DNA of 46,106 nucleotides from Lachnospiraceae bacterium (GTDB lineage: Bacteria > Bacillota > Clostridia > Lachnospirales > Lachnospiraceae), in contig JAFLTG010000010.1 in assembly GCA_022510545.1 (NCBI GenBank), positions 5,040 through 51,145 of the forward strand. The letters run 5' to 3'. The first letter of the stretch is position 1. Each line of letters opens with the position of its first letter. The translations under genes and the position numbers were made by a program. This document shows, piece after piece, positions 13,335 through 29,740 of this stretch. Below the pieces are notes generated by a model. It was not told where the DNA came from. It ran no database searches and saw only the letters and a list, made by a program, of their open reading frames with translations.

Positions 13335-15317
<1,983 letters not shown>

Positions 15318-15389
15318 AAGTTCAAAATCACCTCCGAAGTCAGAACTAAATGGATGTAATGATATTTAAACATCTTTAAAGCAATATTG

Positions 15390-15418
15390 ATTATAGCATA
15401 CTGGTTGAAGTTTGTACA
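15390..15418 (-). promoter_or_regulatory. Extended -10 promoter of uvrBA
   Basis: Minus strand: TGTACA (15413-15418), 17-base spacer ending in TGC, then a perfect TATAAT (15390-15395). This gives an extended -10 element about 73 bases upstream of the uvrB ATG. A 7-base inverted repeat CATACTG...CAGTATG (15397-15423) overlaps the spacer and -35. Confidence 0.7.
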
Positions 15419-15426
15419 GTATGAAT

Positions 15427-15440
15427 AGAACATTTGTTCT
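15427..15440 (-). promoter_or_regulatory. LexA/DinR operator (Cheo-type SOS box) of uvrBA
   Basis: AGAACATTTGTTCT is a perfect GAAC-N4-GTTC palindrome, the Gram-positive LexA consensus core, nine bases upstream of the -35 hexamer. It implies SOS control of uvrBA. The lexA gene is not in the window. Confidence 0.8.
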
Positions 15441-15470
15441 ATTTGATTGTTACTTATTCATCTAACATTT

Positions 15471-15507
15471 AAGAGGAATAACCTGCAAACTGCAGGATAC
15501 TCCTCTT
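15471..15507 (-). terminator. Strong two-part hairpin downstream of the accessory operon
   Basis: The outer stem is AAGAGGA/TCCTCTT and the inner stem CCTGCA/TGCAGG, around a small loop with a symmetric internal bulge. It lies between the accessory operon and the uvrB promoter. The T tract on the minus strand is poor (CTCTTAAATG), so termination efficiency is uncertain. Confidence 0.55.
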
Positions 15508-15562
15508 TGTACTAAGTCCTATTTCATTGTAATATCAAAACTTTTGCCATTCTCACTACTGA

Positions 15563-15643
15563 CTATTCCTTGCACATTACTACTAATATTTGAAAACTTT
15601 CTGTCACGATTATTTCTATATTAGACCCATGAAAAAGTTTAAC
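15563..15643 (-). pseudogene. Relic of a DUF3990 gene: only the N-terminal codons remain
   Basis: Directly after, and overlapping, the DUF3791 stop, one frame reads VKLFHGSNIEI. This matches the opening of DUF3990 proteins (typically MKLYHGSNIEI-like). The homology then stops and the frame ends at a TAG after 26 codons, with no start codon at the expected place (GTT instead of ATG). DUF3990 genes are normally about 150 codons and pair with DUF3791. Another frame downstream stays open to a TAG at 15519-15521, reading QGIVSSENGKSFDITMK near its end; that part is unrelated. I infer a deletion that left the partner orphaned. Confidence 0.55.
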
Positions 15644-15863
15644 AAACAGTACCTCCGTTTTTTCTACATACCGCAGTCAGGTCATCCAATACATCATCAA
15701 ATGAAAGCGTATGCTCCACATCATAAAACTCTTTTAAGAATTCAATCCCCTTATTGCGGCTTAAATAAATATATGCATCTCTCACATGCATCTCATACCG
15801 ACTTGCAAATTCACTGATACAGATGACAATGTAATCTAATATATTCACATCTTCTTTTCCCAT
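15639..15863 (-). CDS. DUF3791-family small protein (orphan partner)
   Basis: 74 residues from the ATG at 15863, chosen because GAGGT lies seven bases upstream; an in-frame GTG nine bases earlier overlaps that site. The central stretch RDAYIYLSRNKGIEFLKEFY and the following acidic DVEHTLSFDDVLDDL are characteristic of DUF3791. Such genes usually precede DUF3990 genes, and DUF3990 has been linked to ADP-ribosyltransferase-like folds (from memory, not checked). Here the DUF3990 partner is reduced to a relic. It is the last gene of the accessory operon, 27 bases after the glycine-rich gene. Confidence 0.75.
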   Translation of the reverse strand: MGKEDVNILDYIVICISEFASRYEMHVRDAYIYLSRNKGIEFLKEFYDVEHTLSFDDVLDDLTAVCRKNGGTVC

Positions 15864-15890
15864 GCTATACACCTCTTCATATTTCCTTTC

Positions 15891-16877
15891 TCACTCTATC
15901 ATTTTCGACAATAATTCACTCGAATCATTAGTTAATTCTCCCGATTCAGAAAGAATAGTTGTGTCCAATACTGATTTGATAGATGCAACGGTTGAAACCA
16001 AAGCTGCAATAGACTTCTTACTCTCCATACAATACTGCGAGTAATCTGTCCCTTCCGCTAAGATAATACGCTTCATTTCTTCATTAAGCGGATATAAATA
16101 TGCATCTAATTTAGCCAGCAGAGAATAGAACATATAACTTCTACGCCTAATTGCAATACACTGTTCTGAAGCAGTCTGAAGTTCTTCGCAGATTTCATTT
16201 GCTTTTGCTTCATTTGCATATGCATCCTGAAGAGACTTTCCAGCTTTTGCACTTGTAATAATTCCCATAACAAGAAGCGCTGGCCCTGCTACAAGTCCAC
16301 CAAGAACGGCTGTACCTCCAGCCATACCCAAGCCTCCGGCCGCCAACGAACCACCTCCAAAAAATGCCAATGTAGCATTTGATGCAGCAGCTCCACTTAA
16401 GGAAGCAATTGCTGTGCCCGTAGATGCTGTTGCAAAAGTTGTTGCTGCACTATAAGCTCCAAATGCTGCGAGGGCCCCACCTGCAGCTCCTGTTATTCCG
16501 CCTTGTACTAATGAAAAAGAAAACTTGGTCATCTCTGCAAGCTCATCAAATTCCTTCTTATCAAGATTAAGCCTCTTCAATTCCATAATTCCCTCTGACT
16601 CAGCAAAATCTACATTCTTAATCTTCTGGAAGTTTGTTATAAATTCGTTTATTCCGTTATTAAGAACAAACACTTTTTCTTCTCCAAGGTGTTGTAAAGA
16701 ATCTCCACATTGCTTTCTAAGATAATCCAAACGATTCGCTGCATTCTCTATTCTTTGATTTGCATCATCATTTATATTCTTTGCATGTGATTGATTCACA
16801 CCTGCTTTAACAGTTGCTCCTACACCAGTAGCTCCGGTAACTGCAGCTATTCCTATAAATACCAATGGTAAAGGCAT
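15891..16877 (-). CDS. Glycine-rich membrane protein, unknown function
   Basis: 328 residues. An N-terminal hydrophobic glycine-rich segment (residues 2-27) is followed by a helical charged region (30-120), then a long Gly/Ala-rich hydrophobic stretch at about 120-215 with several GxxxG-like spacings (glycine-zipper style), then a helical C-terminus. Such stretches are typical of membrane-inserting or oligomerising proteins. I do not recognise a named family. GGAGG lies before the ATG at 16877. It follows the TerB-like gene by 62 bases in the same operon, so the two may act together at the membrane. Confidence 0.7.
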   Translation of the reverse strand: MPLPLVFIGIAAVTGATGVGATVKAGVNQSHAKNINDDANQRIENAANRLDYLRKQCGDSLQHLGEEKVFVLNNGINEFITNFQKIKNVDFAESEGIMELKRLNLDKKEFDELAEMTKFSFSLVQGGITGAAGGALAAFGAYSAATTFATASTGTAIASLSGAAASNATLAFFGGGSLAAGGLGMAGGTAVLGGLVAGPALLVMGIITSAKAGKSLQDAYANEAKANEICEELQTASEQCIAIRRRSYMFYSLLAKLDAYLYPLNEEMKRIILAEGTDYSQYCMESKKSIAALVSTVASIKSVLDTTILSESGELTNDSSELLSKMIE

Positions 16878-16939
16878 ATCTCGTACCTCCTAATTCGTTC
16901 AAATAAGTAATACAACCATTCCATATGCAACTGCATCCT

Positions 16940-17698
16940 TCATTTGGAAAAAAGTTTTCTAGCTCCTTCTTTAATTCCGGCAGCTCCAGTCATTGCTTTT
17001 GCTCCCAGTTCTTTTGCCACCGGAGCCATAGATTCTCCGACCTTTTTACTTCTAGCTATCACAGAATCTCCAATTTTTTTACCCGTAGCCAGAACAACAT
17101 TTTCTTTCTTCTCTTCCTCTCCAGTAACATCAATTATCATATCATCAGCAATAAGATATTTTGCTGCTTCAACTATTGTTTGATGTCTTTTTTCAACCTC
17201 ATCAATCAGATGCCTTACTTCTGCATATGGTCTTGTCGAATTCTCAAGAATTTCCTTTTCCTCCTGTATAGAATGCGCAACACTTATAAGCTGCTTCATC
17301 TCTGCCAGTACACTCTTATCAATTTGAAGAATTCTAGCCACATGATTTATCAATCTGTTTTCATTCTCAGAATAATCAGAGTCACTATGCGCTAAAGTAA
17401 GCATATTCCAAACAAGTAGTCTGGGTACGACTCCCTCCTCAATCACTTTAACCACTTCATTTAGGGCCTGATCAATTCCTTCCTGAATTAAATCGTATCT
17501 TTCATCATCTACATCAATAGAATTAATCACATTTTCACATTCGGCTATAATCGTTTTCTCTGCTTCCGAAAAGGCTTCTCCTAGTAATTCGATTCCTATT
17601 TCTCGGAAACGTTCTTGCTCAAATGTTGTAACCCCATCTACTGACATTAAATAGTAAAAGGCTTTTAGTGCACCTTCTTTTGCAATCACTTTGATCAT
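16940..17698 (-). CDS. TerB-like domain protein
   Basis: 252 residues. Residues about 1-150 look like a TerB/DjlA-N helical bundle: YLMSVDGVTTFEQERFREIG at the first metal-type loop, and LAHSDSDYSENENRLINHVA at the second, with acidic residues in both. A charged linker follows, then a C-terminal tail of Lys/Gly/Ala helices (GKKIGDSVIARSKKVG onward) that may bind membrane. TerB domains occur in tellurite-resistance and phage-defence islands and bind divalent metals or other proteins. The exact job here is unknown. It starts with GGAGGGG and lies 12 bases after the 541-residue gene. Confidence 0.7.
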   Translation of the reverse strand: MIKVIAKEGALKAFYYLMSVDGVTTFEQERFREIGIELLGEAFSEAEKTIIAECENVINSIDVDDERYDLIQEGIDQALNEVVKVIEEGVVPRLLVWNMLTLAHSDSDYSENENRLINHVARILQIDKSVLAEMKQLISVAHSIQEEKEILENSTRPYAEVRHLIDEVEKRHQTIVEAAKYLIADDMIIDVTGEEEKKENVVLATGKKIGDSVIARSKKVGESMAPVAKELGAKAMTGAAGIKEGARKLFSK

Positions 17699-17710
17699 AG
17701 TCAGCCCCTC

Positions 17711-19336
17711 CTAAAATTCCAGTGTATCTTCCGTCATCATAAGCTCATCAAATTCTTCCATAGAGCCAAACATGCTTTTACCGGACAATTCTGTTTGAAT
17801 CATATTATTTCCTAGAATAAATGCGTCTATATCATTTTCAGTTACGGCCTGGTCCATTGTGCTAAAAGCTTGTGTAAATACGGACATCTTATCAAAGAGA
17901 TAGTTAGTGACCATATCCTCCATCGCTTTGCGATTTTCTCGGATAACCTCTATCCTTGCAGCACATTCCTGCTCAATTCGAACTCTCTCTTCTGTTGCCA
18001 TTTTCAAATCCTTAAGCGCCTTATTAATCTCATCGTAAACGCCAATTGTTGCAGCAATAAATCCGATTGGTGTACCTATCTTTGCCACAGAAATTGCAGT
18101 CTCAACTCCATATTTACCAACATCCCAATCAGCCTGTCCATTTGGCAGTTTTTCAATAATGGATTTCTTTTGCTCCTCTGCTGCCGCAAGGAATCCTGTC
18201 TGCATTTTCTGTATCGCCAACATAAATTCAGAATTAGATGCCAATGCGAAACTCCCAAGCCCCCAATAATTAATACTCTGCATAAAATCCAAAGCAAACC
18301 CGCTCGGATTATTCTTATTCTTCAGGGCAGCCCCAATTCCTGCAACAGCCAAATCAATCGAAGTAAATGTGGACGTAGCAATCATTCTCATATGCCTAAT
18401 TGCTTCATTCTTCCATGGGAGACATTTTGAAATATCAATATGTTGCAAATCATCCAAAGAATTAATTTCACCTTCTTCAATTTGCATCATAAATCTTCTT
18501 ACGGAATAGAAAGAAGCAACTATAAGCTCATTTAATACAACCGGTATGTATAGTTTATTTTTGATTGATTCATTCACAATTCCCAACTCTGTTCTTAAAT
18601 CAAATCTAAGTTCTTGATGAAGTATTAGCTTGCCACTTTCATCATGTTTACCAAGCAAAGTGCCATTAAACATCTTTGAGCAAATTACTGAAAACTGATA
18701 ATTTGACTCTTTATTTGAAGATGTTTTAGGATCCGTTTTTCCTGCAATATTTCGAATGCCCGGAATAGAAGAAATCTCCTTTAAGAATGACATTAACGGC
18801 CCCGGCAATCCAGTTCCTTCCCTTCCCATTCTCCTAGTTCCACTTGATCCTGCAATATCACTGATCATATGGAATAGCCATGTAACAGTGCCTAAATAAA
18901 CAGAATCTATAAAGCTTTTCGGCTGCCAACCCGGCAAATCATAAGAAACAAACTCACCATTTGTTTTTGTTCCATATCCCTTTCCAGTGAATTGCATCAA
19001 TAAAGAAAACATCAGACCAATCGGCGTGGGATGATGAGAGAAATCTCTCAAATGATGCTGGGATCCGCTTCCGAATTCTTTTGTAAGCAAATCGCCATCC
19101 ATAGGAAAATCATCTTCAAGCTTCTTGATGACGCCTGCAATATCATTTCCTTTATATCCTTTGGACTTAGCAACTTTCATAACAAAATTATCAATCTTAT
19201 CACTGCCCCACTCATGTGCATCAGCGAGTGATATATCGCCAACCCACAAAACATCCATGGCTGCCGTAAGCGCTCCACTTGAAATAGAAAGAGCGACGTC
19301 ATATTTATCTATTTTTTGATTAATATTTTTATCCAT
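17711..19336 (-). CDS. Conserved-looking His-motif protein, unknown function
   Basis: 541 residues from the ATG at 19336, preceded by GAGGTG; a GTG nine bases earlier overlaps that site. Residues about 90-120 read HHLRDFSHHPTPIGLMFSLL, followed by WLFHMISDIAGSSG near 155 and GREGTGLPGPL near 172. The paired His and Asp residues in partly hydrophobic segments suggest a metal-binding, membrane-associated enzyme, but no family is recognised. Further hydrophobic segments lie near residues 315-360 and 415-435, and a charged coiled-coil-like stretch near 440-485. It is the fourth gene of the accessory operon. Confidence 0.65.
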   Translation of the reverse strand: MDKNINQKIDKYDVALSISSGALTAAMDVLWVGDISLADAHEWGSDKIDNFVMKVAKSKGYKGNDIAGVIKKLEDDFPMDGDLLTKEFGSGSQHHLRDFSHHPTPIGLMFSLLMQFTGKGYGTKTNGEFVSYDLPGWQPKSFIDSVYLGTVTWLFHMISDIAGSSGTRRMGREGTGLPGPLMSFLKEISSIPGIRNIAGKTDPKTSSNKESNYQFSVICSKMFNGTLLGKHDESGKLILHQELRFDLRTELGIVNESIKNKLYIPVVLNELIVASFYSVRRFMMQIEEGEINSLDDLQHIDISKCLPWKNEAIRHMRMIATSTFTSIDLAVAGIGAALKNKNNPSGFALDFMQSINYWGLGSFALASNSEFMLAIQKMQTGFLAAAEEQKKSIIEKLPNGQADWDVGKYGVETAISVAKIGTPIGFIAATIGVYDEINKALKDLKMATEERVRIEQECAARIEVIRENRKAMEDMVTNYLFDKMSVFTQAFSTMDQAVTENDIDAFILGNNMIQTELSGKSMFGSMEEFDELMMTEDTLEF

Positions 19337-19360
19337 GTATCGCACCTCGCCATCATATCT

Positions 19361-19801
19361 CTACTTGAATTTGTATCGCAAATTTTCCTCTACTAATCCT
19401 ACAAGAGAATGTCTCATACCTTTTGATATTTTATCAAAGTTATCTCCAAAGGCTTGTTTCCAGGTTTCAGTCTCTCCAGTTCTAATGCGAATTAAATCCG
19501 GTTCTTTTTTTGCATAATGCGAATAAACTTCAACCGCATATTCCTCTTCGATAAAAACATCTATCTCCGCAAGAATCGCATCCAATTCATTACTCACTTC
19601 AATAATAGCTGTTCTTTTTTTGCATTGATTACAATTCTCAAATCTATCTACCAATTTCTTTACCGTCTCACTATTATAATAACTACATTCTTCGCACTTT
19701 GCTTTTTCAACATGTGCCTCATATTTCTTATTTATCTTTTTTCTGACATCATATAATTTTGCAAGTTTTTTACTGCATTTTTTTAATGACATACTGACCA
19801 T
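19361..19801 (-). CDS. Small Cys-pair protein, candidate immunity or adaptor protein
   Basis: 146 residues. The N-terminus is very basic (MVSMSLKKCSKKLAKLY). Two cysteine pairs, CEEC near residue 36 and CNQC near 57, could bind zinc between two helices. The C-terminal half is acidic and ends in a basic tail. AGGAGG sits five bases before the ATG at 19801. It starts nine bases after the toxin-like lipoprotein gene, the usual position and size for an immunity gene, but no known immunity family is recognised. Confidence 0.6.
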   Translation of the reverse strand: MVSMSLKKCSKKLAKLYDVRKKINKKYEAHVEKAKCEECSYYNSETVKKLVDRFENCNQCKKRTAIIEVSNELDAILAEIDVFIEEEYAVEVYSHYAKKEPDLIRIRTGETETWKQAFGDNFDKISKGMRHSLVGLVEENLRYKFK

Positions 19802-19810
19802 ATCAACCTC

Positions 19811-22087
19811 CTACGAACCAACTTCTGCAGCAACAGATGATGCAGCTGTAATAAAACGATCAAAAAACTTGATACCCATATTCTCTTTCATAAATTTAGC
19901 TAATGCATAACCACCCATGTGAGCAATTCCACCTAAAGCCTTATCATGAACCTTTCTTGCAACAAGCGTAATTGTTTGGAGATCGAGATTTTCATGTAAT
20001 ACAAAATCACTTTTCTGAATAATATCTACCAATGCTGTTGATTCAATATCTTCTAACTCTTTTCCCGTATTTTGAATTGCCTTTGCTATTGATTCAGGAA
20101 CCAACGATGAATCGTCTATCCATGATTGTTTTAACAACTTAGCTGCCTCTTCAAAATTAATATCTCTATCACCTAATAACCCCTTTGGAAGAGTAACTGT
20201 TTGATATTTTGAAGAATCAAATAATACACCAACTGCGCCGTTTTTCTTAATAATTTGAATAATTTCTCCATCTAAACTGAAATGTGCAATAACATCCCCA
20301 TCGCTTGCCCCTTCAAACAACTCACGCAATGTCTGCTTCGTTATCACATTTTCATCAACATCCAGAATGTCTGCCTTCTTTAATGCATTAAAGGCTTTAT
20401 CGACTAATTCTTCAGATCCTTCTTCTAAAAGCTTATTCATCTGATTTTGGCCTATTTTTCTCGCAATATATTCACTGTGGAACACTGAATCATCTGCCCT
20501 TTTCTTTAATCCATTAAGAGCATTTGCTGCACTGGCAGACATTTTACTCACTTTAGCACAAAGCTTTGGTGCAACTTTCTCTGCCGTCTTCTTTAATGTC
20601 GGAGCAATCTTTGAAGCTAATTTCTCGCAAGTAACTCCCACACCCTTAAATGCAGCACTTAAACCAGCTCCAAGTACAAATCCCCATCCAAAAGATTTTG
20701 CAACATCTGCCGCATCGCCTCCGTCAACCCAAGCAATCAATGCCCTTTCAGATGCACCCAGCACGCCATCTATCACCGAATCAATCAAGAAATACTGCGC
20801 AAATTTCTGTCCATACTGAGCATATACATAAGGCCCTAGATAACCACTAACTGCTCCAGTTGAAGCAGATAAAACTACCTTTGTCCAATTAATTGAATCA
20901 AGACTATTACTTTCCAGAACAACCTGCATAAATATTTCGATTGCAGTTCCTGACATAGCACCTGCAGCAACTGACAAAGGTGGACATTCTACAAGCACAG
21001 AAGCGCTTACCACACCTACAATAGTGACAACCACGCATACGCTTCCTACAATCCACTTGCAAAGTGATGTAGCTTCATTTCCCGTTTCAAGCGTAAAGAC
21101 CATCATTCTATCATTAGTAATCCTATAACATTCCATAGGATCCAGCTTTGAAGTGATTTCAACCAAGTAATCAACATCATATCCAAGGAAGGTTTCCTCT
21201 TGTATAGATAAGAAATATGATTCCACTGCCTCTTGTGCATAATAAGCACATGTTTCAATATCTATCGTAGCAAAATTGAAATCTTGTTCTTCCAGAATTC
21301 TGTTTATTTCCGCTTGAAGCTCGTCGTAGTCAATTTCGGTAGAAAGCGATGCTCCTGCTATACCAGTATAATTTCCTTGATCTAAATCATATAAATATCT
21401 CTGGTCATCATACGAATATAATGAACCTATTTCTTCATCAACAGATTCCTTATCGTATATTGCTTCCTTATAGAAAAGAGAGCCTTTTTCATCTACTCCA
21501 TACTTCACATATTTGCCATAAACGACACAATGATCTATAAACGAATCACTTCGATAGGCAAGTACAAATGATGCTATCTCATCCTGATACTCAATATTGT
21601 ATATCTCAAGCCCTGCATCAAATTCACTATCCTGAATCTCTGTTTCACCAATATACGGAATAAATCCAGCAAAAAAGCATCCTTGTGCCTCATCTTCATT
21701 TGCATAGCATTCCGAATAATCTGAATATGCGATACCAGACACTTCCGTACCATCTGAAAGCCTTATATAACCTGGAAACACATCGTAAAAATACCCAATC
21801 TGATTTGCTACCAAACCATAAACAAAGGTTTCCATATCTCCAAGATAATCTTCCCAATTATCAGATAATAAAATTGATGACGCATCTTCCAAAATATCAT
21901 CTGTACTAGCCACTGTGTCAGTATGTTGAAGAATCGATTCTACAGTCTCTTCTACAATAGCATTTGTACCTATTTCAATATTATTTTTTGACGGAATCTC
22001 TTGTTTTCCACAGCCGGATAACAAAGATGCAACCATGCATACAGAAAGTAAAATTGAAACAAATCTATTCATTATGCTCTTCTTCAT
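19811..22087 (-). CDS. Lipoprotein with polymorphic-toxin-like C-terminal HNH-type domain
   Basis: 758 residues. A lipoprotein signal peptide ends in LLSGCGK with the lipidated Cys at residue 26. An acidic extracellular-type domain covers about 30-340. A hydrophobic region rich in Gly/Ala (about 345-480) resembles pre-toxin modules. The C-terminus carries LLGDRDINFEEAAKLL, then LHEN (H698), LVARKVHD (H714) and HMGG (H723). This order (GDR...NF...A, H, LV...H, HxGG) resembles WHH/LHH-type HNH nuclease toxins, though the first His cluster is LHEN rather than HHH. Its ATG lies inside the end of the surface-protein gene, so both are coupled. Confidence 0.65.
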   Translation of the reverse strand: MKKSIMNRFVSILLSVCMVASLLSGCGKQEIPSKNNIEIGTNAIVEETVESILQHTDTVASTDDILEDASSILLSDNWEDYLGDMETFVYGLVANQIGYFYDVFPGYIRLSDGTEVSGIAYSDYSECYANEDEAQGCFFAGFIPYIGETEIQDSEFDAGLEIYNIEYQDEIASFVLAYRSDSFIDHCVVYGKYVKYGVDEKGSLFYKEAIYDKESVDEEIGSLYSYDDQRYLYDLDQGNYTGIAGASLSTEIDYDELQAEINRILEEQDFNFATIDIETCAYYAQEAVESYFLSIQEETFLGYDVDYLVEITSKLDPMECYRITNDRMMVFTLETGNEATSLCKWIVGSVCVVVTIVGVVSASVLVECPPLSVAAGAMSGTAIEIFMQVVLESNSLDSINWTKVVLSASTGAVSGYLGPYVYAQYGQKFAQYFLIDSVIDGVLGASERALIAWVDGGDAADVAKSFGWGFVLGAGLSAAFKGVGVTCEKLASKIAPTLKKTAEKVAPKLCAKVSKMSASAANALNGLKKRADDSVFHSEYIARKIGQNQMNKLLEEGSEELVDKAFNALKKADILDVDENVITKQTLRELFEGASDGDVIAHFSLDGEIIQIIKKNGAVGVLFDSSKYQTVTLPKGLLGDRDINFEEAAKLLKQSWIDDSSLVPESIAKAIQNTGKELEDIESTALVDIIQKSDFVLHENLDLQTITLVARKVHDKALGGIAHMGGYALAKFMKENMGIKFFDRFITAASSVAAEVGS

Positions 22088-25000
22088 CTCTGTCCTCCTC
22101 AGAATTATTGTTTAAAACTTCCTTATCTATATTTAACTTTTTCTTAACAAAGCAAAATACTCCTCCTGCTGTTAAGGCTAAAACAATCAATACAAATATA
22201 ATAATTTCTCCTGATTTTTTATTATGTACTGATGTTTCATCATTTTCTGCAGCATGTTCACTTTTATCTCGATATAAAGCCACCAAAACAATATCTTGGT
22301 CTTCAGTTATTATTATCTTGTCTTTATATATCTCTTCTCCCTTTACCCATCCTACAAAAGCAGTATCATCACGATCGTCAAGCTTTGGAAGTTCATACTC
22401 AGCACCATAACTTATTTCCATCTCGGACACTTCTGTTCCATCATCATTTAGCAATGTCAATTTATATTGGTTAGCTCTCCACACAGGACTTAGAACTACA
22501 GACCCTCTAAAATCTATTTTTTCAATAACATTCTCATATAAATTTCCTTGATAATCTTCATAACCAATAAGTGTATATCCATCTTTTTCGATAACAGGCA
22601 ATTCAGTCTTATTGTCCTCATATGAAGCAATAATTGTATCCAAATTCTCTGTTCCTTCACCACTAAATGAAATAGTTGCATAATCTGACTCATCAACATT
22701 TATCTTAACTGAATACTTGTTTCCGATTCTGTTCACAACTGTAATGGTATATTCACCTTCGTCTGCCCAAACGGCTTTATCAAGCTGATCTTCTGCATAT
22801 GCATATAAACCAGCCGGACCTTCTACAATAACAACATCATATGGATCCAATTCATCCTTAATATCTTCCAGTGAGAATAAATCCACCGTCTTAATATCAT
22901 CATTGCTATCTTGTGTATAAGTTACAGTCTCCCTATTTCCTTTTGAATAGTATGAAATTATAAGCTTTGCTGTAATATCATCATCTGCGTAGAAAACTGC
23001 GTCATATGAAGCACTGTCGCCATATACAGTTGATTCTGTTATTGTGATTTTTCCAGTAGGACATCCCTGGGAAGCTAATTGCAAACTTACACCTTTGTTA
23101 TACTGGATTGAATATTCCTTACCATCGCAGTCCGTGATAATAACAGAATCGGAATCGCATCCATATTTATCCCTAACGAACTTAAAATCAGATGTACCGG
23201 AAATAGGTTTCTTAGTATTACTATCTGTCAAATACGAATATGGTAATGCATTTATGATAGGTAGTGCTTCTATAGACGTTAATGCATTCTCCTGTTCATC
23301 GTCAGCATATATAGTAACACTTCTTTCAAGCTCAAGTTTTCGCAGATTACTATATTTCGAAATTGTTGCTTCATTCAGAGTTAAATATGTATATTCATCG
23401 GAAAGATCAAAATAGAGCTCTTGAACAGCCTGTTCTGCAAAATAGTTTTCTGCATCTGTCAAATCCCAGGTTGAATCATATTTTTCTTTTCTTGTTACTA
23501 AAAAGGAACCTGTATATCTATAAGTACCATCAGCCTGTATTTCCACCATTCCCTTTTCATAATTATAGGCAGCCTGAACAGCGGCTTTTCTTGTTGCATA
23601 GGCTTTTGTAATATTTCCTTTTGCTGCACTTGGATAAGTCAACCCATAATATATAGGATATGCTCCAGAGATATTCTCCTTATTAGCATTAATTAAGTTC
23701 TGTTTATTTATCACTGGTCCAGGAGCATTTCCTTTTTCGATAATTCTAAACCTAAATGTAATGACACGATTATCTCCAGATATAACATCATTATCATATG
23801 TGGGATTATTACAGAATACAGCAACATATTCTCCCGGATCATTAATTGCAGCCACCTTAGAATTGCGTGTTGCGGAAATATCTATTTTTTCACCATTTGT
23901 CACATTTTGAATATATCCATATATTGGTAGATAATTTACATCTACAGCTGCAATATTATAATTAGTTAACCCGCCTTCAAAAACCGGATAGTCTCCCCCT
24001 GAATAAATTCTTTTACCTTGAATAAATCCATCACCAAAATAGTATTTAAGTGCGTCTCTTGAAGACATACGATCAACATATAGGGTTACATTTTTTGTTA
24101 CCCCCACTGCACTCTTCAACTCAATCTCATATTTCCCTGTCTCAGTGAATTTATGATCACTAGGAACACCTACACTTACCCCATCCTTTTTTACAGTATA
24201 TGTAACTGTAGGATTCAATGAATTATCAATAGCAAATCCAGACACAGTAACTGAACCAGAAGTCAGAGTCTGAGATTTTTTATACATCTCTGTAAGAATC
24301 TCATCGTCTTCTCCGCATATTTCTTCCTTTTCTTCCGTTATAGATAAATTCGGGAAAGTAACTGCATCTAACTCATTACTGCATAAATAGAATTTATATT
24401 CCTCAACGCATCTTTTGGGGGTTTTACCATTAACTTCTTTTGTTTTGTATGCATATAAAATCCTAATATACATTCCGGAAAGAACATCATTTCCATCTGG
24501 AGAATAAATATATATATCCCCCAGTCCAGCATAGTTATTAGTAAAGTCTGTTGTATATAAACCTTTTGAATATTTCCCAGAATCAATATTTTCCCATGTT
24601 TTTCCATCCTTAGATGTCTGAATAACAAGAGTACCTGAGTCAATCGGTCCAGTTTGTGCACCCTCTATTAATTGCTTTTCCTTTTTCCCGTATGTATCTT
24701 CCTCTACCTGCCATCCATTATCAGCATATGTATCACTATCCTTCACCCTGATGTAGAATGCAACTGAGTCTCCTGTAATTCCATATGCAGTAAATCCATT
24801 TTTTGTAGACTTATAAATATTATTCCCCGCTTTTTGTCCAATTATTAGTGTTGATATATTAGGCACAGTCGTATCAACATTACTTGTTGAATAATCCTGT
24901 GAATCTTTTCCTGAATACATTGTTGGAGATAATTCAGAAGTAGCCAGTCCGTTACTAATAGTGACTACAGTTTCAAACGAAGTACCGACAGGAGATTTTG

Positions 25001-25871
25001 AAGTGATTGTATAAACACCCGGAGTTGTATATGAGGTCAAACTATTTACAGTGCTTGAAACCAAAACATTATCTCTCTTAACAGTAATACCAACATTGGC
25101 TCCTACCTTATCAATAACAAAACCATCTGCTACACTATCATTATTGGATAGTTCACGACTTCTGTCTGACATATCATATATTTTGATTGGGTCAGCATCA
25201 TAACAAACAAAAAATTTGTACTCCTCTACACATCGCTTAACCTCATTGTCATCTTTTTTGCCAATCCATGTTTTCTTGTCTCCTGTCTTTCTTTTCATAC
25301 TATACGCGACGTATACTCTAAAATATGTACCATTCAAAATATCTTCCTGCGTAATAGTATATAGAGAATCGCTTCCTGACTTATTCTTCGCAAAAAAATC
25401 ATATTTAGGATCAACTGCATTTACCCAATTCACAGCATCCAAAGATTTCTGAATTAGTACCACACCTTTTGCAATTTTCTTAGATAAAGATATATCTCCG
25501 ATAGTCTTTTCGTCAGCATTATAAATATTCCAATCTTCCTTAACAGATGTTTGAAATCCACCATTGTATGTGTAACCAATTGAAACATCTCCATTACACG
25601 TGTAGGCTTTAACGCTATTCATATCAGAAGTTATATTTGCATTACCATTCAAATAAAGAGAGCCTAAACCCGCTTTACCATATGCAAATTTCGTTACAGA
25701 ATCTTTTGAATTATTGCTAAATGAGTCCGACTTCTCATAATAACCCACTGCATTTACAATAGTCATCCCTGCAGCTAATGCGGATTTTCCACAAATAATA
25801 AAAGCTCCTAACAGTGCGCAAATCATAACGATTTTTATTCTATTTAACCCTTGTTGTGTATTATTATTCAT
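22065..25871 (-). CDS. Large membrane-anchored surface protein with internal duplication
   Basis: 1268 residues. A signal peptide ends near SALAA (residue 34). Two related modules follow, each ending in KRCVEEYKFF/YxC (near residues 214 and 498) and each preceded by an NGTYFRVYVAYS- or SGMYIRILYAYK-like strand. Residues about 1080-1210 look like InlB/Listeria-Bacteroides B repeats (GYTLIGYEDYQGN, DTAFVGWVKGEEIYKDK). A single membrane helix near residues 1220-1243 is followed by a charged cytoplasmic tail; there is no LPXTG. GAGGG lies before the ATG at 25871. It is the first gene of the accessory operon and overlaps the lipoprotein gene by 23 bases. Confidence 0.75.
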   Translation of the reverse strand: MNNNTQQGLNRIKIVMICALLGAFIICGKSALAAGMTIVNAVGYYEKSDSFSNNSKDSVTKFAYGKAGLGSLYLNGNANITSDMNSVKAYTCNGDVSIGYTYNGGFQTSVKEDWNIYNADEKTIGDISLSKKIAKGVVLIQKSLDAVNWVNAVDPKYDFFAKNKSGSDSLYTITQEDILNGTYFRVYVAYSMKRKTGDKKTWIGKKDDNEVKRCVEEYKFFVCYDADPIKIYDMSDRSRELSNNDSVADGFVIDKVGANVGITVKRDNVLVSSTVNSLTSYTTPGVYTITSKSPVGTSFETVVTISNGLATSELSPTMYSGKDSQDYSTSNVDTTVPNISTLIIGQKAGNNIYKSTKNGFTAYGITGDSVAFYIRVKDSDTYADNGWQVEEDTYGKKEKQLIEGAQTGPIDSGTLVIQTSKDGKTWENIDSGKYSKGLYTTDFTNNYAGLGDIYIYSPDGNDVLSGMYIRILYAYKTKEVNGKTPKRCVEEYKFYLCSNELDAVTFPNLSITEEKEEICGEDDEILTEMYKKSQTLTSGSVTVSGFAIDNSLNPTVTYTVKKDGVSVGVPSDHKFTETGKYEIELKSAVGVTKNVTLYVDRMSSRDALKYYFGDGFIQGKRIYSGGDYPVFEGGLTNYNIAAVDVNYLPIYGYIQNVTNGEKIDISATRNSKVAAINDPGEYVAVFCNNPTYDNDVISGDNRVITFRFRIIEKGNAPGPVINKQNLINANKENISGAYPIYYGLTYPSAAKGNITKAYATRKAAVQAAYNYEKGMVEIQADGTYRYTGSFLVTRKEKYDSTWDLTDAENYFAEQAVQELYFDLSDEYTYLTLNEATISKYSNLRKLELERSVTIYADDEQENALTSIEALPIINALPYSYLTDSNTKKPISGTSDFKFVRDKYGCDSDSVIITDCDGKEYSIQYNKGVSLQLASQGCPTGKITITESTVYGDSASYDAVFYADDDITAKLIISYYSKGNRETVTYTQDSNDDIKTVDLFSLEDIKDELDPYDVVIVEGPAGLYAYAEDQLDKAVWADEGEYTITVVNRIGNKYSVKINVDESDYATISFSGEGTENLDTIIASYEDNKTELPVIEKDGYTLIGYEDYQGNLYENVIEKIDFRGSVVLSPVWRANQYKLTLLNDDGTEVSEMEISYGAEYELPKLDDRDDTAFVGWVKGEEIYKDKIIITEDQDIVLVALYRDKSEHAAENDETSVHNKKSGEIIIFVLIVLALTAGGVFCFVKKKLNIDKEVLNNNSEEDRDEEEHNE

Positions 25872-26193
25872 ACGTATCCCTCACAAAATTTGTGTTTGTC
25901 TATCATAATCTATTATAATAATTAGTAGTACAATAAACGTCACTCCACGACTATAATCGTATCCTTGCTTCTTACTTCAATCTTCAATAAATCATCCAAT
26001 AAATCAATCTACAAATCGTTAATCCAACCAAAATCATCAGTCGAATCCTAAGATAAATGTCTTATTTGTTGTATTCATATATATTACCATAACAATCTTT
26101 AGTAAGAAAGACGGAATGTCTCATTATACAATTAATTTTATTAAAACATTTTCCGGCGAACCATTCTACAAAATACTTTCTCCAATCCTTATT
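25872..26193. other. Intergenic region upstream of the accessory operon
   Basis: 322 bases without a gene. On the minus strand a TATAAT (25914-25919) lies about 43 bases before the operon start, but no good -35 is seen at the right distance. A 13-base palindrome CACAAAATTTGTG (25882-25894) lies just upstream of the ribosome site. A direct repeat CAATAAATCA occurs twice at 25985-26006. No terminator for the small membrane-protein gene is convincing. Confidence 0.4.
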
Positions 26194-26409
26194 TTACGTC
26201 AGCAACTCCCACGCAAGATTAAAGCAGCCTTTTCCTATCGGTATCAACAATATTGTGATGCAAAATGTAATACCCAAAAACGCCATGAGAATTGCAAATG
26301 GCAGCTTTATGAACAACCAAAACAATATCGAAAACATTGCACCGGTAACTTTGAAGCAAAGCCAAAATATAATCGTTAATATTCCTAAGCAAATAATAAT
26401 TCCCAGCAT
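26194..26409 (-). CDS. Small hydrophobic membrane protein
   Basis: 71 residues, nearly all hydrophobic, with two or three membrane segments and few charges (Lys20, Lys35, Lys60). AAGGAGGGAAATT directly precedes the ATG at 26409, which makes it more than a chance open frame. The opposite strand is also open over much of this stretch but lacks a ribosome site. No family recognised. Confidence 0.55.
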   Translation of the reverse strand: MLGIIICLGILTIIFWLCFKVTGAMFSILFWLFIKLPFAILMAFLGITFCITILLIPIGKGCFNLAWELLT

Positions 26410-26445
26410 AATTTCCCTCCTTACAAAAACAAGCCTGATTATTCA

Positions 26446-27102
26446 TTATCCAAACACAATACTCAACGCAGGACACATATCTCCAAGTGTCAGCATTTCT
26501 GATTCCACTTTTTCTCCTCGGAGCTTACGATAGTATTCGTTTAAAACCAGGTCCGGTTCTTTTTCCATTTTGATAAATAACATTGCAGTGTTTTTTGCAT
26601 CAACTAATCCATCATGAAATTTTTCATCAAACATAATGTCTGTTGCAATTAATGCTTCTGATAATTTATATGTTTTCCTTCTATTCACCTTTTTTGAAAA
26701 AGTCTTTTGACAGTCCTGCCAAGTCTCAAGAAGTATATTAAGTCTGGGAATATCGATATGCTTAGCTTCTATTTCATGACAAATTTGCATTTTATCGCTA
26801 TCACTCCACGAAACACAAACCGCATTTTCCGGAACCCAATCTACAAATTTCTCTAGGGCCTCCTTCATTTTAGATGCGTCTTTAATATCAAAAGATGAAA
26901 TCCCCGTCAAATTCCTTATAAACGCATCAATCTCACCATACTCCGGATGCACATATGTATTAAACTCATCGATAATTTCTAAATTCTCATCAACCAATAC
27001 AGCGCCTATCTGAATGGTCTCAGCTGACCAATGATATATTTGATCCCTAATTGGTTTTGGTACTATACACATTTCAAGATCAACTATTACATATTTACTC
27101 AT
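26446..27102 (-). CDS. DnaQ-like DEDDh 3'-5' exonuclease
   Basis: 218 residues from the ATG at 27102, with AGGAGG nine bases upstream. An earlier in-frame start at 27168 would add 22 residues without a ribosome site. The exonuclease motifs are visible: DLE near residue 8 (Exo I), SWSDSDKM near 99 (Exo II), and HDGLVDAKNTA near 162 (Exo III with His and Asp). A lone DEDDh domain of this size is usually a proofreading- or RNase T/oligoribonuclease-like nuclease; the substrate is unknown. The small gene just upstream is probably co-transcribed. Confidence 0.8.
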   Translation of the reverse strand: MSKYVIVDLEMCIVPKPIRDQIYHWSAETIQIGAVLVDENLEIIDEFNTYVHPEYGEIDAFIRNLTGISSFDIKDASKMKEALEKFVDWVPENAVCVSWSDSDKMQICHEIEAKHIDIPRLNILLETWQDCQKTFSKKVNRRKTYKLSEALIATDIMFDEKFHDGLVDAKNTAMLFIKMEKEPDLVLNEYYRKLRGEKVESEMLTLGDMCPALSIVFG

Positions 27103-27164
27103 ATTGTATGTCCTCCTCGGTTTATTGCATGTTATATTCCCATTTTGTAAGCTGGGTATTTCGC

Positions 27165-27329
27165 TCAATAATTTGATTTCTCATTAACTCTTTTATTGCC
27201 CAAATATTCATCAATTGGATACCCATGAAATGTTGATTTGTTTTCTAATCCCAGTCTTTTACATAATTCTTCCTTGCTTTCCATTTGATCAATAAGCTGG
27301 CACATTCTTAATCTTTCCTGAACACTCAT
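27165..27329 (-). CDS. Small helical protein upstream of the exonuclease gene
   Basis: 54 residues from the ATG at 27329, chosen for the GGAGG site seven bases upstream (an in-frame start at 27395 lacks one). The sequence starts MSVQERLRMCQLIDQMESKE, a charged amphipathic helix, and includes STFHGYPIDEY. The stop is 62 bases before the exonuclease start, so the two look like one operon. No function can be assigned. Confidence 0.5.
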   Translation of the reverse strand: MSVQERLRMCQLIDQMESKEELCKRLGLENKSTFHGYPIDEYLGNKRVNEKSNY

Positions 27330-27367
27330 ACTGCCACCTCCAACCATTTGCTTTTTGTGTGTATGAC

Positions 27368-27382
27368 TCAAGTATATCTTGA
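27368..27382 (-). promoter_or_regulatory. Inverted repeat over a possible -10 of the exonuclease operon
   Basis: TCAAG-TATAT-CTTGA overlaps a minus-strand TATACT (27371-27376), about 40 bases upstream of the small gene. A divergent HTH regulator starts at 27521, which makes this a candidate operator. The -35 is poor. Confidence 0.3.
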
Positions 27383-27458
27383 AACTATCCTTCAAAAAAC
27401 ATTCATAGATGCGACATAGATACCCCTATTTCGCCTTTTTTGTCACAATAGAATTTAC

Positions 27459-27487
27459 TTTATTTATCTATGGCTTGCCTGTATAAT
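27459..27487 (+). promoter_or_regulatory. Promoter of the HTH regulator gene
   Basis: TTTATT (27459-27464), 17-base spacer, perfect TATAAT (27482-27487), 34 bases before the regulator ATG. It is divergent from the exonuclease operon. Confidence 0.55.
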
Positions 27488-27520
27488 AGATAATAGCAAA
27501 ATGCTGATAAGGAGAATTTT

Positions 27521-28030
27521 ATGGGACGAAAATCTACAAAAGAAAACAAGAATATTTATCAGATTAGTCGAGAAAATGCAAATCTTACAAGAGAAGCCGC
27601 TGCCGAGCAGCTTGAATTTATATCTTCAGATAGAATTGAGAAAATTGAAAATGAAAAGTCATACCCTCATCCGGAGGAAATCATAGCAATGGCAGACTGC
27701 TATAAAAATCCTTCTTTATGCAATTACTATTGCTCACACGAATGCTCCATTGGAAGAGAATATGTTCCGGAGGTTGCTGCAAAAGATCTTTCTATGGTTA
27801 CACTTGAAATGCTTTCAACATTAAATACACTTTCTAAAGAAAAAGATTTAATGATTGATATTGCTGCCGATGGAGAAGTTACAGAGGATGAAATGTCAGA
27901 CTTTTTAAGAATAAGGAATAGCCTTGAAGATATGTCATTAGCCATTGAATCTTTGAAATTATGGTTTGAAAATGCTATTGTATCTGGAAGAATAGATAAA
28001 AGTCTCTTAAATAAACTTACAAAAAAATAG
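27521..28030 (+). CDS. XRE-family helix-turn-helix transcriptional regulator
   Basis: 169 residues. Residues about 10-62 form a Cro/CI-type HTH (ISRENANLTREAAAEQLEFI, then RIEKIENEKSYPHPEEII). A small Cys cluster CNYYCSHEC follows near residue 67, and the rest is helical (MLSTLNTLSKEKDL, NSLEDMSLAIESLKLWFENA), probably for dimerisation. GGAG lies before the ATG at 27521. It is one of only two plus-strand genes in the window, divergent from the exonuclease operon, and may control it or the accessory block. Confidence 0.8.
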   Translation: MGRKSTKENKNIYQISRENANLTREAAAEQLEFISSDRIEKIENEKSYPHPEEIIAMADCYKNPSLCNYYCSHECSIGREYVPEVAAKDLSMVTLEMLSTLNTLSKEKDLMIDIAADGEVTEDEMSDFLRIRNSLEDMSLAIESLKLWFENAIVSGRIDKSLLNKLTKK

Positions 28031-28075
28031 ACTGCAAAATCCGTTGTTTTTTGATTTGCCACCGCATAATAGATT

Positions 28076-28450
28076 TTATTCAAACTCCCACAGAGATGTG
28101 ACAATTTCATCCACAGGATAATGGCGATTATTGCCGGTAACTAACTTTGACTTGGTGCACTTCGCTGCATCATAGAATATCCTATCTTTTTCATCCGGCA
28201 TAGGAATTTGGGATTTTGTCACTTCAATCCAAATAGCGTTATCCCGAAACCAATCCAGTATATATGATATCACTTCTTCATCAAAGCCAAATCGTTCACG
28301 GTGCAGTACATCTTCGTATTCCTTAAAAATTTCCTTATTGATAATCACCTCATGTTTATTGTCCAGCACATCAGATAAAAACCTGAAAGCCGTTCCATCA
28401 GGAGATAGCAATGCAGAAACTAAAATATTTGTATCTATTACTAATCTCAT
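28076..28450 (-). CDS. PIN-domain toxin of a type II toxin-antitoxin module
   Basis: 124 residues. It begins MRLVIDTNILVSALL, the PIN motif I with catalytic Asp6. An acidic EYEDVL follows near residue 44, and DEKDRIFYDAA near 86-96 supplies the remaining acidic residues. The C-terminus has LVTGNNRHYP. This fits the 'putative toxin component, PIN family' group, which cuts RNA. It overlaps the upstream small gene by four bases (ATGA type), the normal antitoxin-toxin arrangement. Confidence 0.85.
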   Translation of the reverse strand: MRLVIDTNILVSALLSPDGTAFRFLSDVLDNKHEVIINKEIFKEYEDVLHRERFGFDEEVISYILDWFRDNAIWIEVTKSQIPMPDEKDRIFYDAAKCTKSKLVTGNNRHYPVDEIVTSLWEFE

Positions 28451-28650
28451 TGCACTTTACCTTTTCTGTATGCTTGAATCTCTTCATCAATTTCTTCCAT
28501 AGATAAAGGATTCATTTGTACATACTTATCCCTTGCGGCCTTTAGGATGCCCGATGGTTTTTCCGCCAATCGATTGATCAGCATAACTACCATATCGTAA
28601 TCCTCTTGTGACAATGTTTCCAGTTTTGCTGTCACTTCTGCTATCCCCAT
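28447..28650 (-). CDS. Antitoxin partner of the PIN toxin
   Basis: 67 residues, acidic helical protein (ETLSQEDYDMVVMLINRLAE) with a charged C-terminus. AAAGGAGG lies seven bases before the ATG at 28650. It overlaps the PIN toxin start by four bases. The length and position fit an antitoxin; the DNA-binding fold is not obvious. Confidence 0.75.
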   Translation of the reverse strand: MGIAEVTAKLETLSQEDYDMVVMLINRLAEKPSGILKAARDKYVQMNPLSMEEIDEEIQAYRKGKVQ

Positions 28651-28851
28651 AGCAAAACCTCCTTTTTATTACATCTCTAAATAATCTGATACTCCATTAC
28701 GATATCTTTTACATCTTCAAGCTAAGCTATATTCTTCACCAATTCAAACTACCTATTTTATTATATCAAAAAGCAGATGATCTACGCCACCATTTTTTCA
28801 CAGATTCATTCCGACTAACACTACATTATATTTACTACCGTCTTTCGACGA

Positions 28852-28901
28852 ATCAAGGTTTCTATGGCTTGTGGTTGATCACAGGTGGGTTTATAATCAT
28901 T
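28852..28901 (-). pseudogene. Decayed copy of the uvrB 5' coding end
   Basis: These 50 bases align without gaps to 15250-15299 inside uvrB, with 40 identities by eye. Read on the minus strand they give [16 protein letters not shown], against [16 protein letters not shown] in UvrB. The similarity ends abruptly on both sides, so start codon, ribosome site and the LexA box are absent. It marks either an insertion or rearrangement boundary: the real uvrB start is 13.6 kb away, beyond the accessory block. Confidence 0.85.
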
Positions 28902-28921
28902 CTAATAAAATTATAATGCAG

Positions 28922-29320
28922 TCATACCCAATCCTCCAGTTCCAAACCATCTACTCTGGCAAACTCTTTCGTATTATTGGTAACTAACGTCAGATTCATA
29001 GATTTCGCATGGGCAGCTATCAATGCATCCAACGGACCAATGGGTGTTCCCTTTTTCTGCAAATCTGCCTTGATCAGCCCATAAACCTGAGCTGCCGAAT
29101 CATCAAACGGTACAATCTGAATTTCAGACAAAAAAACCATAAGAGCAATTCTGTTCTTTTCTTTCGCTTGACTATTTTCAACTCCATGAGCTAATTCCGC
29201 ATAAGTAATTGCAGAAATACAAATATCATCCGGATCATGTTCCATAAATTTTTGAATCACATTCTCCGGCTGGTGCTTTATAATATAGATGCAGATATTC
29301 GTATCAAACATATATTTCAT
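28922..29320 (-). CDS. vapC: VapC-type PIN-domain ribonuclease toxin
   Basis: 132 residues. MKYMFDTNICIYIIK holds the first catalytic Asp (residue 6). SAITYAELAHGVENS supplies the conserved Glu near residue 42, and GPLDALIAAHAKSMNLTLVTNNTKEF the C-terminal Asp residues near 99 and the TNN motif. This is the classical VapC arrangement; such toxins cleave tRNA or rRNA. It overlaps vapB by four bases. Confidence 0.92.
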   Translation of the reverse strand: MKYMFDTNICIYIIKHQPENVIQKFMEHDPDDICISAITYAELAHGVENSQAKEKNRIALMVFLSEIQIVPFDDSAAQVYGLIKADLQKKGTPIGPLDALIAAHAKSMNLTLVTNNTKEFARVDGLELEDWV

Positions 29321-29547
29321 AGGCTGTCTCTCTCCTGCTCCGGCTGATCTTCACGACCACCTGACATAAAATCAGCAGAAAACATATTGAGTCCGCTTAA
29401 AAATCCATTCCATTTGGAAGACTTTGGTATGAGCATTACAATTTCACCTATTTTATTGACAAATACTTCATCATCTGAAAAGCGGCATTCCTTTGGAAGT
29501 CTTACTGCCTGACTTCTTCCATTTTCAAATACCTTTGCTGTTGTCAT
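29317..29547 (-). CDS. vapB: VapB-type AbrB/MazE-fold antitoxin
   Basis: 76 residues. The N-terminus KVFENGRSQAVRLPKECRF is a textbook AbrB-like swapped-hairpin DNA-binding fold; the C-terminal tail (EDQPEQERDSL) would wrap the toxin. GGAGG precedes the ATG at 29547. Together with its operator at 29597-29616 it should autoregulate. Confidence 0.92.
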   Translation of the reverse strand: MTTAKVFENGRSQAVRLPKECRFSDDEVFVNKIGEIVMLIPKSSKWNGFLSGLNMFSADFMSGGREDQPEQERDSL

Positions 29548-29595
29548 AATTATCTACCTCCGTTTTCAAGAAAATATACCATTATTCTTATATAT

Positions 29596-29625
29596 AGTAT
29601 ATATCGCGATATATACCAGCGTCAA
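29596..29625 (-). promoter_or_regulatory. vapBC promoter with palindromic operator in the spacer
   Basis: Minus strand TTGACG (29620-29625), 18-base spacer, TATACT (29596-29601). A perfect 20-base palindrome, GTATATATCGCGATATATAC (29597-29616), covers the -10 and most of the spacer, a likely VapBC binding site for autorepression. Confidence 0.75.
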
Positions 29626-29691
29626 TATAGTATGCTCCAATAATAATTTATTTATTCTTACAATGTCCATAAAGCAAAAGATATTACGAGT

Positions 29692-29717
29692 AAAAAACGC
29701 AGACCATACAGCCTGCG
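29692..29717 (-). terminator. Rho-independent terminator of the ftsEX-M23-S41 operon
   Basis: Minus strand CGCAG stem, 10-base loop, CTGCG, followed by TTTTTT. It lies 24 bases after the S41 protease stop. Confidence 0.8.
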
Positions 29718-29740
29718 CTTCGTTTCTTTTTATCATATTA

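Follow-up and report, generated by a model that had tools for sequence, protein, structure and literature searches.

The seven neighbouring genes described here, from the genome of a Lachnospiraceae bacterium, are two separate things – a three-gene unit and an adjacent toxin-type cassette – plus a DUF3791 gene. They lie within a 46,106-nucleotide stretch of contig JAFLTG010000010.1 (genome G000; 178 contigs, 87% complete), which we refer to as the window. The three-gene unit, or trio, encodes an effector with an HH (BnzB-like) domain (gene 1), a TerB-domain protein (gene 2), and a glycine-rich membrane protein (gene 3), and the cassette encodes a surface protein (SURF), a lipoprotein (LIPO), and a Cys-pair protein (CYS). 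With a probability of roughly one half, we read the trio as an intracellular membrane-anchored immune module – anti-phage or anti-mobile-DNA – with exchangeable effectors. An earlier note on the window had described seven co-directional, closely spaced or overlapping genes, and the open reading frames (ORFs) agree: all seven run along the minus strand from 25871 down to 15639, with intergenic gaps from SURF to DUF3791 of -23, 9, 15, 12, 62, and 18 bases. The note placed the left end of the cluster at 15563, which is 76 bases past the last stop codon (15639).

That the trio is an evolutionary unit, a modular system of three genes, is well supported. We searched one genome per species with a profile of five gene 3 relatives and kept the best 80 of 168 confirmed relatives; these come mostly from Bacillota, along with six Bifidobacterium and two spirochaete records, and many of the loci are cut by contig ends. 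BLAST clustering placed the TerB family in 75/80 loci and the gene 1 family in 74/80 – the co-conservation of TerB-like, glycine-rich, and His-motif genes across varied loci that the earlier note had proposed as a check. By profile search, the TerB gene stands directly before gene 3 in 76/80 loci, always within 120 bases (median gap 12). A same-strand ORF of at least 170 amino acids precedes the TerB gene in 73/80, and 71 of these ORFs are within 180 bases of it (median gap 11). The next commonest neighbour family, which reads as a helix-turn-helix regulator, is present in 11/80 loci. Across 49 loci with an HH-type gene 1, the three proteins have correlated distance matrices (r 0.72, 0.73, and 0.82; reached by 0/999 permutations), a result to which species history in common could contribute. 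We excluded locus L151, whose region is that of L068, from this analysis and from the C-terminal-domain analysis described below.

The earlier note had suggested that all seven genes form one trans-envelope device in which the surface protein, the lipoprotein, and the intracellular parts act jointly. The close co-directional arrangement in the window is consistent with this proposal, as is the presence of SURF-LIPO-type genes near HH or gene 3 relatives in L119, L121, L162, L080, and L067. However, the SURF and LIPO families each occur in only 3/80 trio loci (L119, L121, and L162, themselves contributors to those profiles), the window SURF has a relative in 1/80, and the window LIPO, CYS, and DUF3791 proteins have relatives in 0/80. 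The cassette type is also found by itself. Among 250 genomes of the family, 50 contain a match to the LIPO profile at E 0.001, mostly to the signal region only, and seven contain a full-length match (E <1e-100). Two of these seven (G153 and G081, the profile's own members) adjoin HH or gene 3 relatives and a third (G169) borders a contig end, but four (G010, G100, G249, and G224; loci L234, L235, L236, and L238) have no trio relatives within the 15–19 kb examined. An ORF in L238 that matches the TerB profile at 2.8e-5 reads as a helix-turn-helix protein and was counted as spurious. The cassette is therefore separable from the trio, and we consider a seven-gene device extremely improbable. A scan for internal signals identified 35 promoter-like sites (46.8 expected) and five terminator-like sites (4.7 expected); these counts are close to or under expectation and thus uninformative about whether the cluster is split.

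The closest relative of the window region, locus L092 of Lachnospiraceae bacterium isolate HAN046 (apparently genome G253), likewise argues against the seven-gene proposal. This locus is 83–85% identical to the window on the exonuclease/ctpA side (window 26006–28031) and 87% identical over the trio (window 19326–15881), which is at apparently the same site. Its contig ends after 53 bases that match window 15393–15444 at 83%, within the stretch before uvrB, and the uvrB of this genome is on another contig. Between the flank and the trio, L092 has genes of 543, 115, 447, and 414 amino acids (L092 1699–6292) in place of SURF-LIPO-CYS. Since the trio is kept while other genes occupy the position of the cassette, the two are inherited separately. 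No DUF3791 frame follows the L092 trio, and we rejected DUF3791 as a trio member given its absence from the 80 loci. The 543-amino acid L092 protein is secreted and by eye resembles the nuclease-like effectors described below, though it was absent from the effector-profile matches at E 1.

The trio and cassette interrupt an otherwise housekeeping gene order, as the earlier note had recognized. Within the genus, the uvrB–ctpA interval (window 15317–29741) is a variable locus. Of 50 same-genus genomes searched, 47 contain both uvrB and ctpA, and in 31 the two genes are on one contig. Their order and strand are constant in 31/31, while the gap between them ranges from 205 bases to 37.7 kb. We read the contents of ten of 12 retrieved stretches and found no trio member in these ten other fillings. 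The ctpA, ftsX, ftsE, and M23-type genes were identified by reading translations. Genome G060 was considered as an empty-site reference and set aside in favour of the genus survey, as it keeps uvrA–uvrB but has different upstream genes. Translations also point to two PIN-domain (VapC-like) ORFs in the window interval (28076–28650 and 28922–29547), each with a small upstream partner in a toxin-antitoxin-like arrangement.

Gene 1 (17711..19336, minus strand) encodes a 541-amino acid protein from the ATG at 19336, or a 544-amino acid protein from an alternative GTG at 19345. It matches the PADLOC model for BnzB at 3.6e-29. We aligned 60 rows from 66 HH-profile hits (L151, L065, L066, L091, L073, and L074 were left out), and the BnzB model matches 59/60 of these members, 12 of which (L058–L064 and L068–L072) had entered through a BnzB search. 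Nine residues (D28, E74, D82, H94, H95, H101, H156, S159, and D160) are conserved at 88–97% across the alignment, and the window protein contains the His motif, HHLRDFSHHP, that the earlier note had pointed out. This conserved His/Asp set suggests that the HH domain binds metal and is a probable metal-dependent hydrolase. No Pfam family matches more than 7/60 members, even at E 0.1. An AlphaFold2 model of gene 1 is confident and helical (mean predicted local distance difference test score 86.3; predicted template modelling score 0.67), and a search of Protein Data Bank chains gave no clear match to a solved structure. We had guessed from HxxxD motifs that the domain might be a zinc phospholipase or S1-P1-type enzyme, but set this aside given the lack of a clear structural match and the conservation of D98 at below 80%.

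We also asked whether gene 1 might be the latter half of a longer gene that a TAG codon interrupts, as a genome search matched BnzB positions 8–352 across the stop. We rejected this reading on several grounds. The homologues in L060 and the closely related L092 start near the same place (some other gene 1 homologues have longer N-termini), the ATG at 19336 is preceded by a purine-rich stretch, homology to L092 begins at 19326, and extension across the TAG gains only ~10 bits (101.4 to 111.1). Elsewhere in the window genome, a second BnzB-like protein (contig C135, L076 7672–8994; 440 amino acids, 7.2e-21) is encoded between genes for proteins of 318 and 694 amino acids, with no relative of gene 2 or gene 3 labelled beside it.

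Comparison across loci established that gene 1 is modular, with an HH domain, an M48 peptidase plus HH domain, or a nuclease-like domain joined to one common C-terminal domain. Across 81 loci (the 80 plus the window), 49 have an HH-type gene preceding TerB and 25 have a non-HH one; the remaining seven comprise four without a TerB call, two at a contig edge, and one antisense. HH-type proteins have two main sizes, with 21 listed at 505–575 amino acids and 23 at 760–820, and the one long form that was scanned (L068) contains an M48 peptidase domain (1.2e-12). The C-terminal ~110 amino acids are common to the HH and non-HH types. When the final 110 residues of HH-type gene 1 proteins were made into a profile, it matched 25/28 non-HH gene 1 proteins, with a worst E of 4.7e-26, and missed L087, L144, and L167, the latter two of which look like wrongly chosen upstream ORFs. 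Elsewhere in the whole ORF set, this profile matched only four ORFs at E 0.001, which appear to be gene 1 fragments or gene 1 copies for which no TerB was called.

Five residues (E81, D105, D116, Q133, and K135 in L104 numbering) are invariant in 18/18 full-length non-HH gene 1 proteins. On the basis of E81, D105, D116, and Q133-x-K135, we read the N-terminal domain of these proteins as PD-(D/E)xK-like nuclease, a reading that is our own and that no tool confirmed. The non-HH protein of L104 matches PDC-M09B at 7.6e-10, while those of L100, L117, L146, L102, and L145 have no PADLOC match at E 0.1. Both forms are found within the genus: the window genome and G253 have the HH form, and G274, G288, G266, and G289 the nuclease-like one (three of these four are apparently also L123, L148, and L165). 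In L087 (2630–7769), the gene that precedes TerB and gene 3 has a 1124-amino acid product which, on reading, looks like a protein kinase with an NTPase-like portion and lacks the common C-terminal domain. Downstream of the trio in L068 (13394–14839) is a DNA/RNA non-specific endonuclease (4.6e-15) with a signal-like start.

Exchangeable, toxin-like domains raise the alternative that gene 1 is an interbacterial toxin, with the TerB and glycine-rich proteins serving as carrier or immunity partners. Glycine-rich hydrophobic proteins can form pores, and toxin-type cassettes are present near some trio loci. Yet no signal peptide or secretion motif was seen on reading gene 1, and usual polymorphic toxins vary at the C-terminus, whereas gene 1 varies N-terminally. 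In addition, no small gene family occurs in more than the 11/80 loci noted above, and that family reads as a regulator. We therefore regard an interbacterial weapon as very unlikely.

Gene 2 (16940..17698, minus strand) encodes a 252-amino acid protein with a hydrophilic C-terminal tail. The TerB-like assignment in the earlier note holds at the family level: the window protein matches Pfam TerB at 1.2e-4, below the cut-off, but 43/50 scanned family members (of 77 listed) match at E 0.01 or better, with a best value of 1.8e-9. We set aside the search for solved relatives of this protein, as the best profile matches were apolipoproteins (9.5e-4, to the helical tail), with TerB structures appearing only at 0.072. 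Gene 3 (15891..16877, minus strand) encodes a 328-amino acid protein with two hydrophobic stretches and a Gly/Ala-rich middle. Glycine and alanine make up 47.9% of residues 120–215, the structure model is poor in the middle, and the protein matches PDC-M09A in PADLOC at 1.3e-35. Hydropathy analysis identified hydrophobic stretches in three of the seven window proteins, in line with the earlier note's count of at least three members with membrane-type stretches.

We observed sister operons in which a small gene replaces TerB between the effector and a PDC-M09A-like gene (L083, L084, L085, L058, and L059); the small protein of L085 is of a CxxCxxCC type (7.7e-6). In two further loci (L069 7231–9630 and L072 6238–8664), single 800-amino acid proteins match the window effector and, weakly, the glycine-rich protein, in a fusion-like arrangement.

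Relatives of three window proteins are listed in PADLOC – gene 1 (BnzB), gene 3 (PDC-M09A), and the DUF3791 protein (PDC-M13A) – where PDC, according to the accessible part of its source, stands for 'phage defence candidate' (PMC11514479). The BnzB and PDC-M09A matches, a PDC-M09B match in L104, the exchangeable enzyme domains, and a patchy presence lead us to the defence reading. In a survey of 50 same-genus genomes, 13 had any match and six, including the window genome, had full-length matches at ≥59% identity. Defence is the best but unproven reading of the trio.

The surroundings of trio-like loci were also examined for links to defence. A type IV restriction enzyme directly follows the BnzB–PDC-M09A pair in L062 (5.2e-202), and regulators that read as WYL-type are present in five loci; the WYL domain is tied to defence regulation in the available text of PMC4012209. 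A random 100 of 378 flank proteins matched 135 PADLOC models and 100 of 135 control proteins matched 17, figures that count models rather than proteins, and 5/20 control stretches did not exist. The commonest PADLOC family was found in 3/100 flank proteins, versus mad3 in 5/100 control proteins.

A competing explanation is that the trio is a Ter-like module that responds to envelope or metal stress, with effectors that are quality-control proteases or hydrolases. Tellurite and stress operons are known to carry TerB, M48 peptidases are known from envelope quality control, and gene 3 was seen on neither phages nor plasmids. Against this explanation, which we judge unlikely, are the trio's patchy distribution inside a single genus, an exchange of effectors that extends to nuclease-like domains, and the PADLOC-listed relatives.

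Returning to the immune module, we infer a working model that covers membrane anchoring, docking, metal chemistry, and the trigger. The hydrophobic stretches of the glycine-rich protein would anchor it in the cytoplasmic membrane, and the TerB protein would bridge it to the effector, whose constant C-terminal domain would hold the effector in place. A phage-induced membrane event might then activate the variable N-terminal enzyme of the effector – HH in the window, M48 peptidase plus HH or a nuclease-like domain in other genomes. The enzyme would either cut incoming DNA or damage the cell in a way that stops the phage from multiplying.

More tentatively, the trio may represent an undescribed immune platform, mostly of gut bacteria, in which unrelated enzymes plug into a membrane TerB/glycine-rich core through the constant docking domain, and of which BnzB, PDC-M09, and PDC-M40 are branches; we think this possible but doubtful. 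The weapon would be exchanged in such a platform while the sensor stayed constant. If true, defence families that are now listed separately would be joined in one modular system, the widespread and unexplained TerB domain would gain a role in linking a membrane protein to an effector, and an orphan enzyme domain, HH, would be made available whose target is open to testing. A detection rule for new effectors would also follow – read whatever precedes the common C-terminal domain.

We next turn to the neighbours of the trio. SURF (22065..25871, minus strand) encodes a 1268-amino acid protein with a signal region, an internally duplicated ectodomain, a List_Bact repeat, and a C-terminal membrane stretch. 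The duplication proposed in the earlier note is real: residues 40–240 align with residues 340–510 (BLASTP E 3e-14), although a whole-protein self-BLASTP did not list it at E 1e-3. LIPO (19811..22087, minus strand) encodes a 758-amino acid protein with an internal hydrophobic stretch, and sequence reading supports the signal and lipobox that the note's lipoprotein label implies. Its own sequence gives weak support to the 'toxin-like' part of that label: Pfam matches to CdiA_C_tRNase (0.14), WHH (0.18), and Colicin-DNase (0.24) are all at chance level, the latter two near the C-terminus. CYS (19361..19801, minus strand) encodes a 146-amino acid protein that has the Cys pairs previously described and no significant profile or database match of its own.

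The window order of surface protein, lipoprotein, and small gene is that of a recognizable cassette type. SURF residues 46–223 match the SURF family of LHH-toxin cassettes with an hhalign probability of 98.4% (E 4.2e-15), a likeness that covers the N-terminal ectodomain; a Pfam Flg_new match (1.5e-5) is below the cut-off. In L067 and L080, a SURF homologue is followed by a lipoprotein with a C-terminal LHH nuclease (Pfam 3.6e-19 and 1e-16) and then by a SUKH protein (2.2e-12 and 4.7e-9), the counterpart of CYS by place. L119 and L162 read as similar cassettes, and L121 has a different C-terminal end. We rejected homology between LIPO and the LHH lipoproteins, as only the signal/lipobox region aligns with the LIPO profile. 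From gene order and the SURF likeness, we read SURF-LIPO-CYS as a probable divergent toxin-immunity cassette, with LIPO the putative toxin and CYS, by its place, the putative immunity protein. The last gene of the stretch (15639..15872, minus strand) encodes a 77-amino acid protein whose DUF3791 identity, as given in the earlier note, is clear (Pfam 2e-22; PDC-M13A at 4.5e-31) and which is probably an unrelated passenger. In Pfam searches with the seven proteins, TerB and the List_Bact repeat fell just below their cut-offs and the other four proteins had no significant match.

The earlier note recognized no described system with this gene set. That stands for the set, as far as we searched; it does not stand for the parts, three of which are already listed in PADLOC. 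Our literature search found no paper on PDC-M09, PDC-M40, BnzB-like, or TerB-containing defence, and the accessible portions of the literature on TerB, glycine zippers, Ter stress, and Dionysus held no description of this gene set. We therefore compared the cassette and the trio with the nearest known systems. The SURF-LIPO-CYS cassette resembles LHH lipoprotein-SUKH cassettes (L067, L080, L119, L162, L234–L236, and L238) in gene order and SURF N-terminal homology, but the window LIPO and 146-amino acid protein show no detectable homology to their LHH lipoprotein and SUKH counterparts.

Shango, whose anti-phage activity has been demonstrated according to the part of PMC10250203 available, resembles the trio in having TerB in a phage-defence operon – as listed for both Bunzi and Shango in the available section of a review (PMC10952713) – and the TerB of the trio is likewise evident at the family level. 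The trio differs from Shango in that no ATPase or helicase was matched among the seven proteins. PDC-M40 loci (L083 and L085) share with the trio an order of effector (PDC-M40B), small gene, and PDC-M09A-like protein. They differ in having a small gene (CxxCxxCC in L085) in place of TerB and an effector of another family, HNH-like by reading. PDC-M09 is similar in that gene 3 matches PDC-M09A and one non-HH gene 1 (L104) matches PDC-M09B. In the trio, however, a TerB gene lies in between, and the window gene 1 is BnzB-like rather than M09B-like (no window protein matched PDC-M09B at E 1).

The closest comparison is with Bunzi, which is listed as BnzA plus BnzB in the accessible text of PMC11206119. 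The HH effector of the trio is homologous to BnzB, and in both systems a partner protein contains a hydrophobic stretch rich in glycine (as judged from reading the L067 BnzA). Along with the listing of TerB for Bunzi in the review table, these similarities suggest an alternative in which the trio is a divergent Bunzi proper, with the TerB and glycine-rich proteins either substituting for BnzA or derived from it by a split. Several observations weigh against this. A search of the window genome, itself 87% complete, found no BnzA at E 0.001, and none of the seven proteins matched BnzA at E 1. Among the 250 family genomes, 20 are BnzB-positive and 23 BnzA-positive, and by their coordinates the two adjoin in just three of the 20 BnzB-positive genomes (G153, G077, and G116). 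Furthermore, non-HH effectors have the same TerB and PDC-M09A-like partners. A divergent Bunzi is thus quite unlikely. The trio, which we favour reading as an immune module in its own right, has the enzyme of Bunzi but not its partner: the partners here are separate TerB and PDC-M09A-like proteins, and its effector carries a C-terminal domain common to the non-HH effectors.

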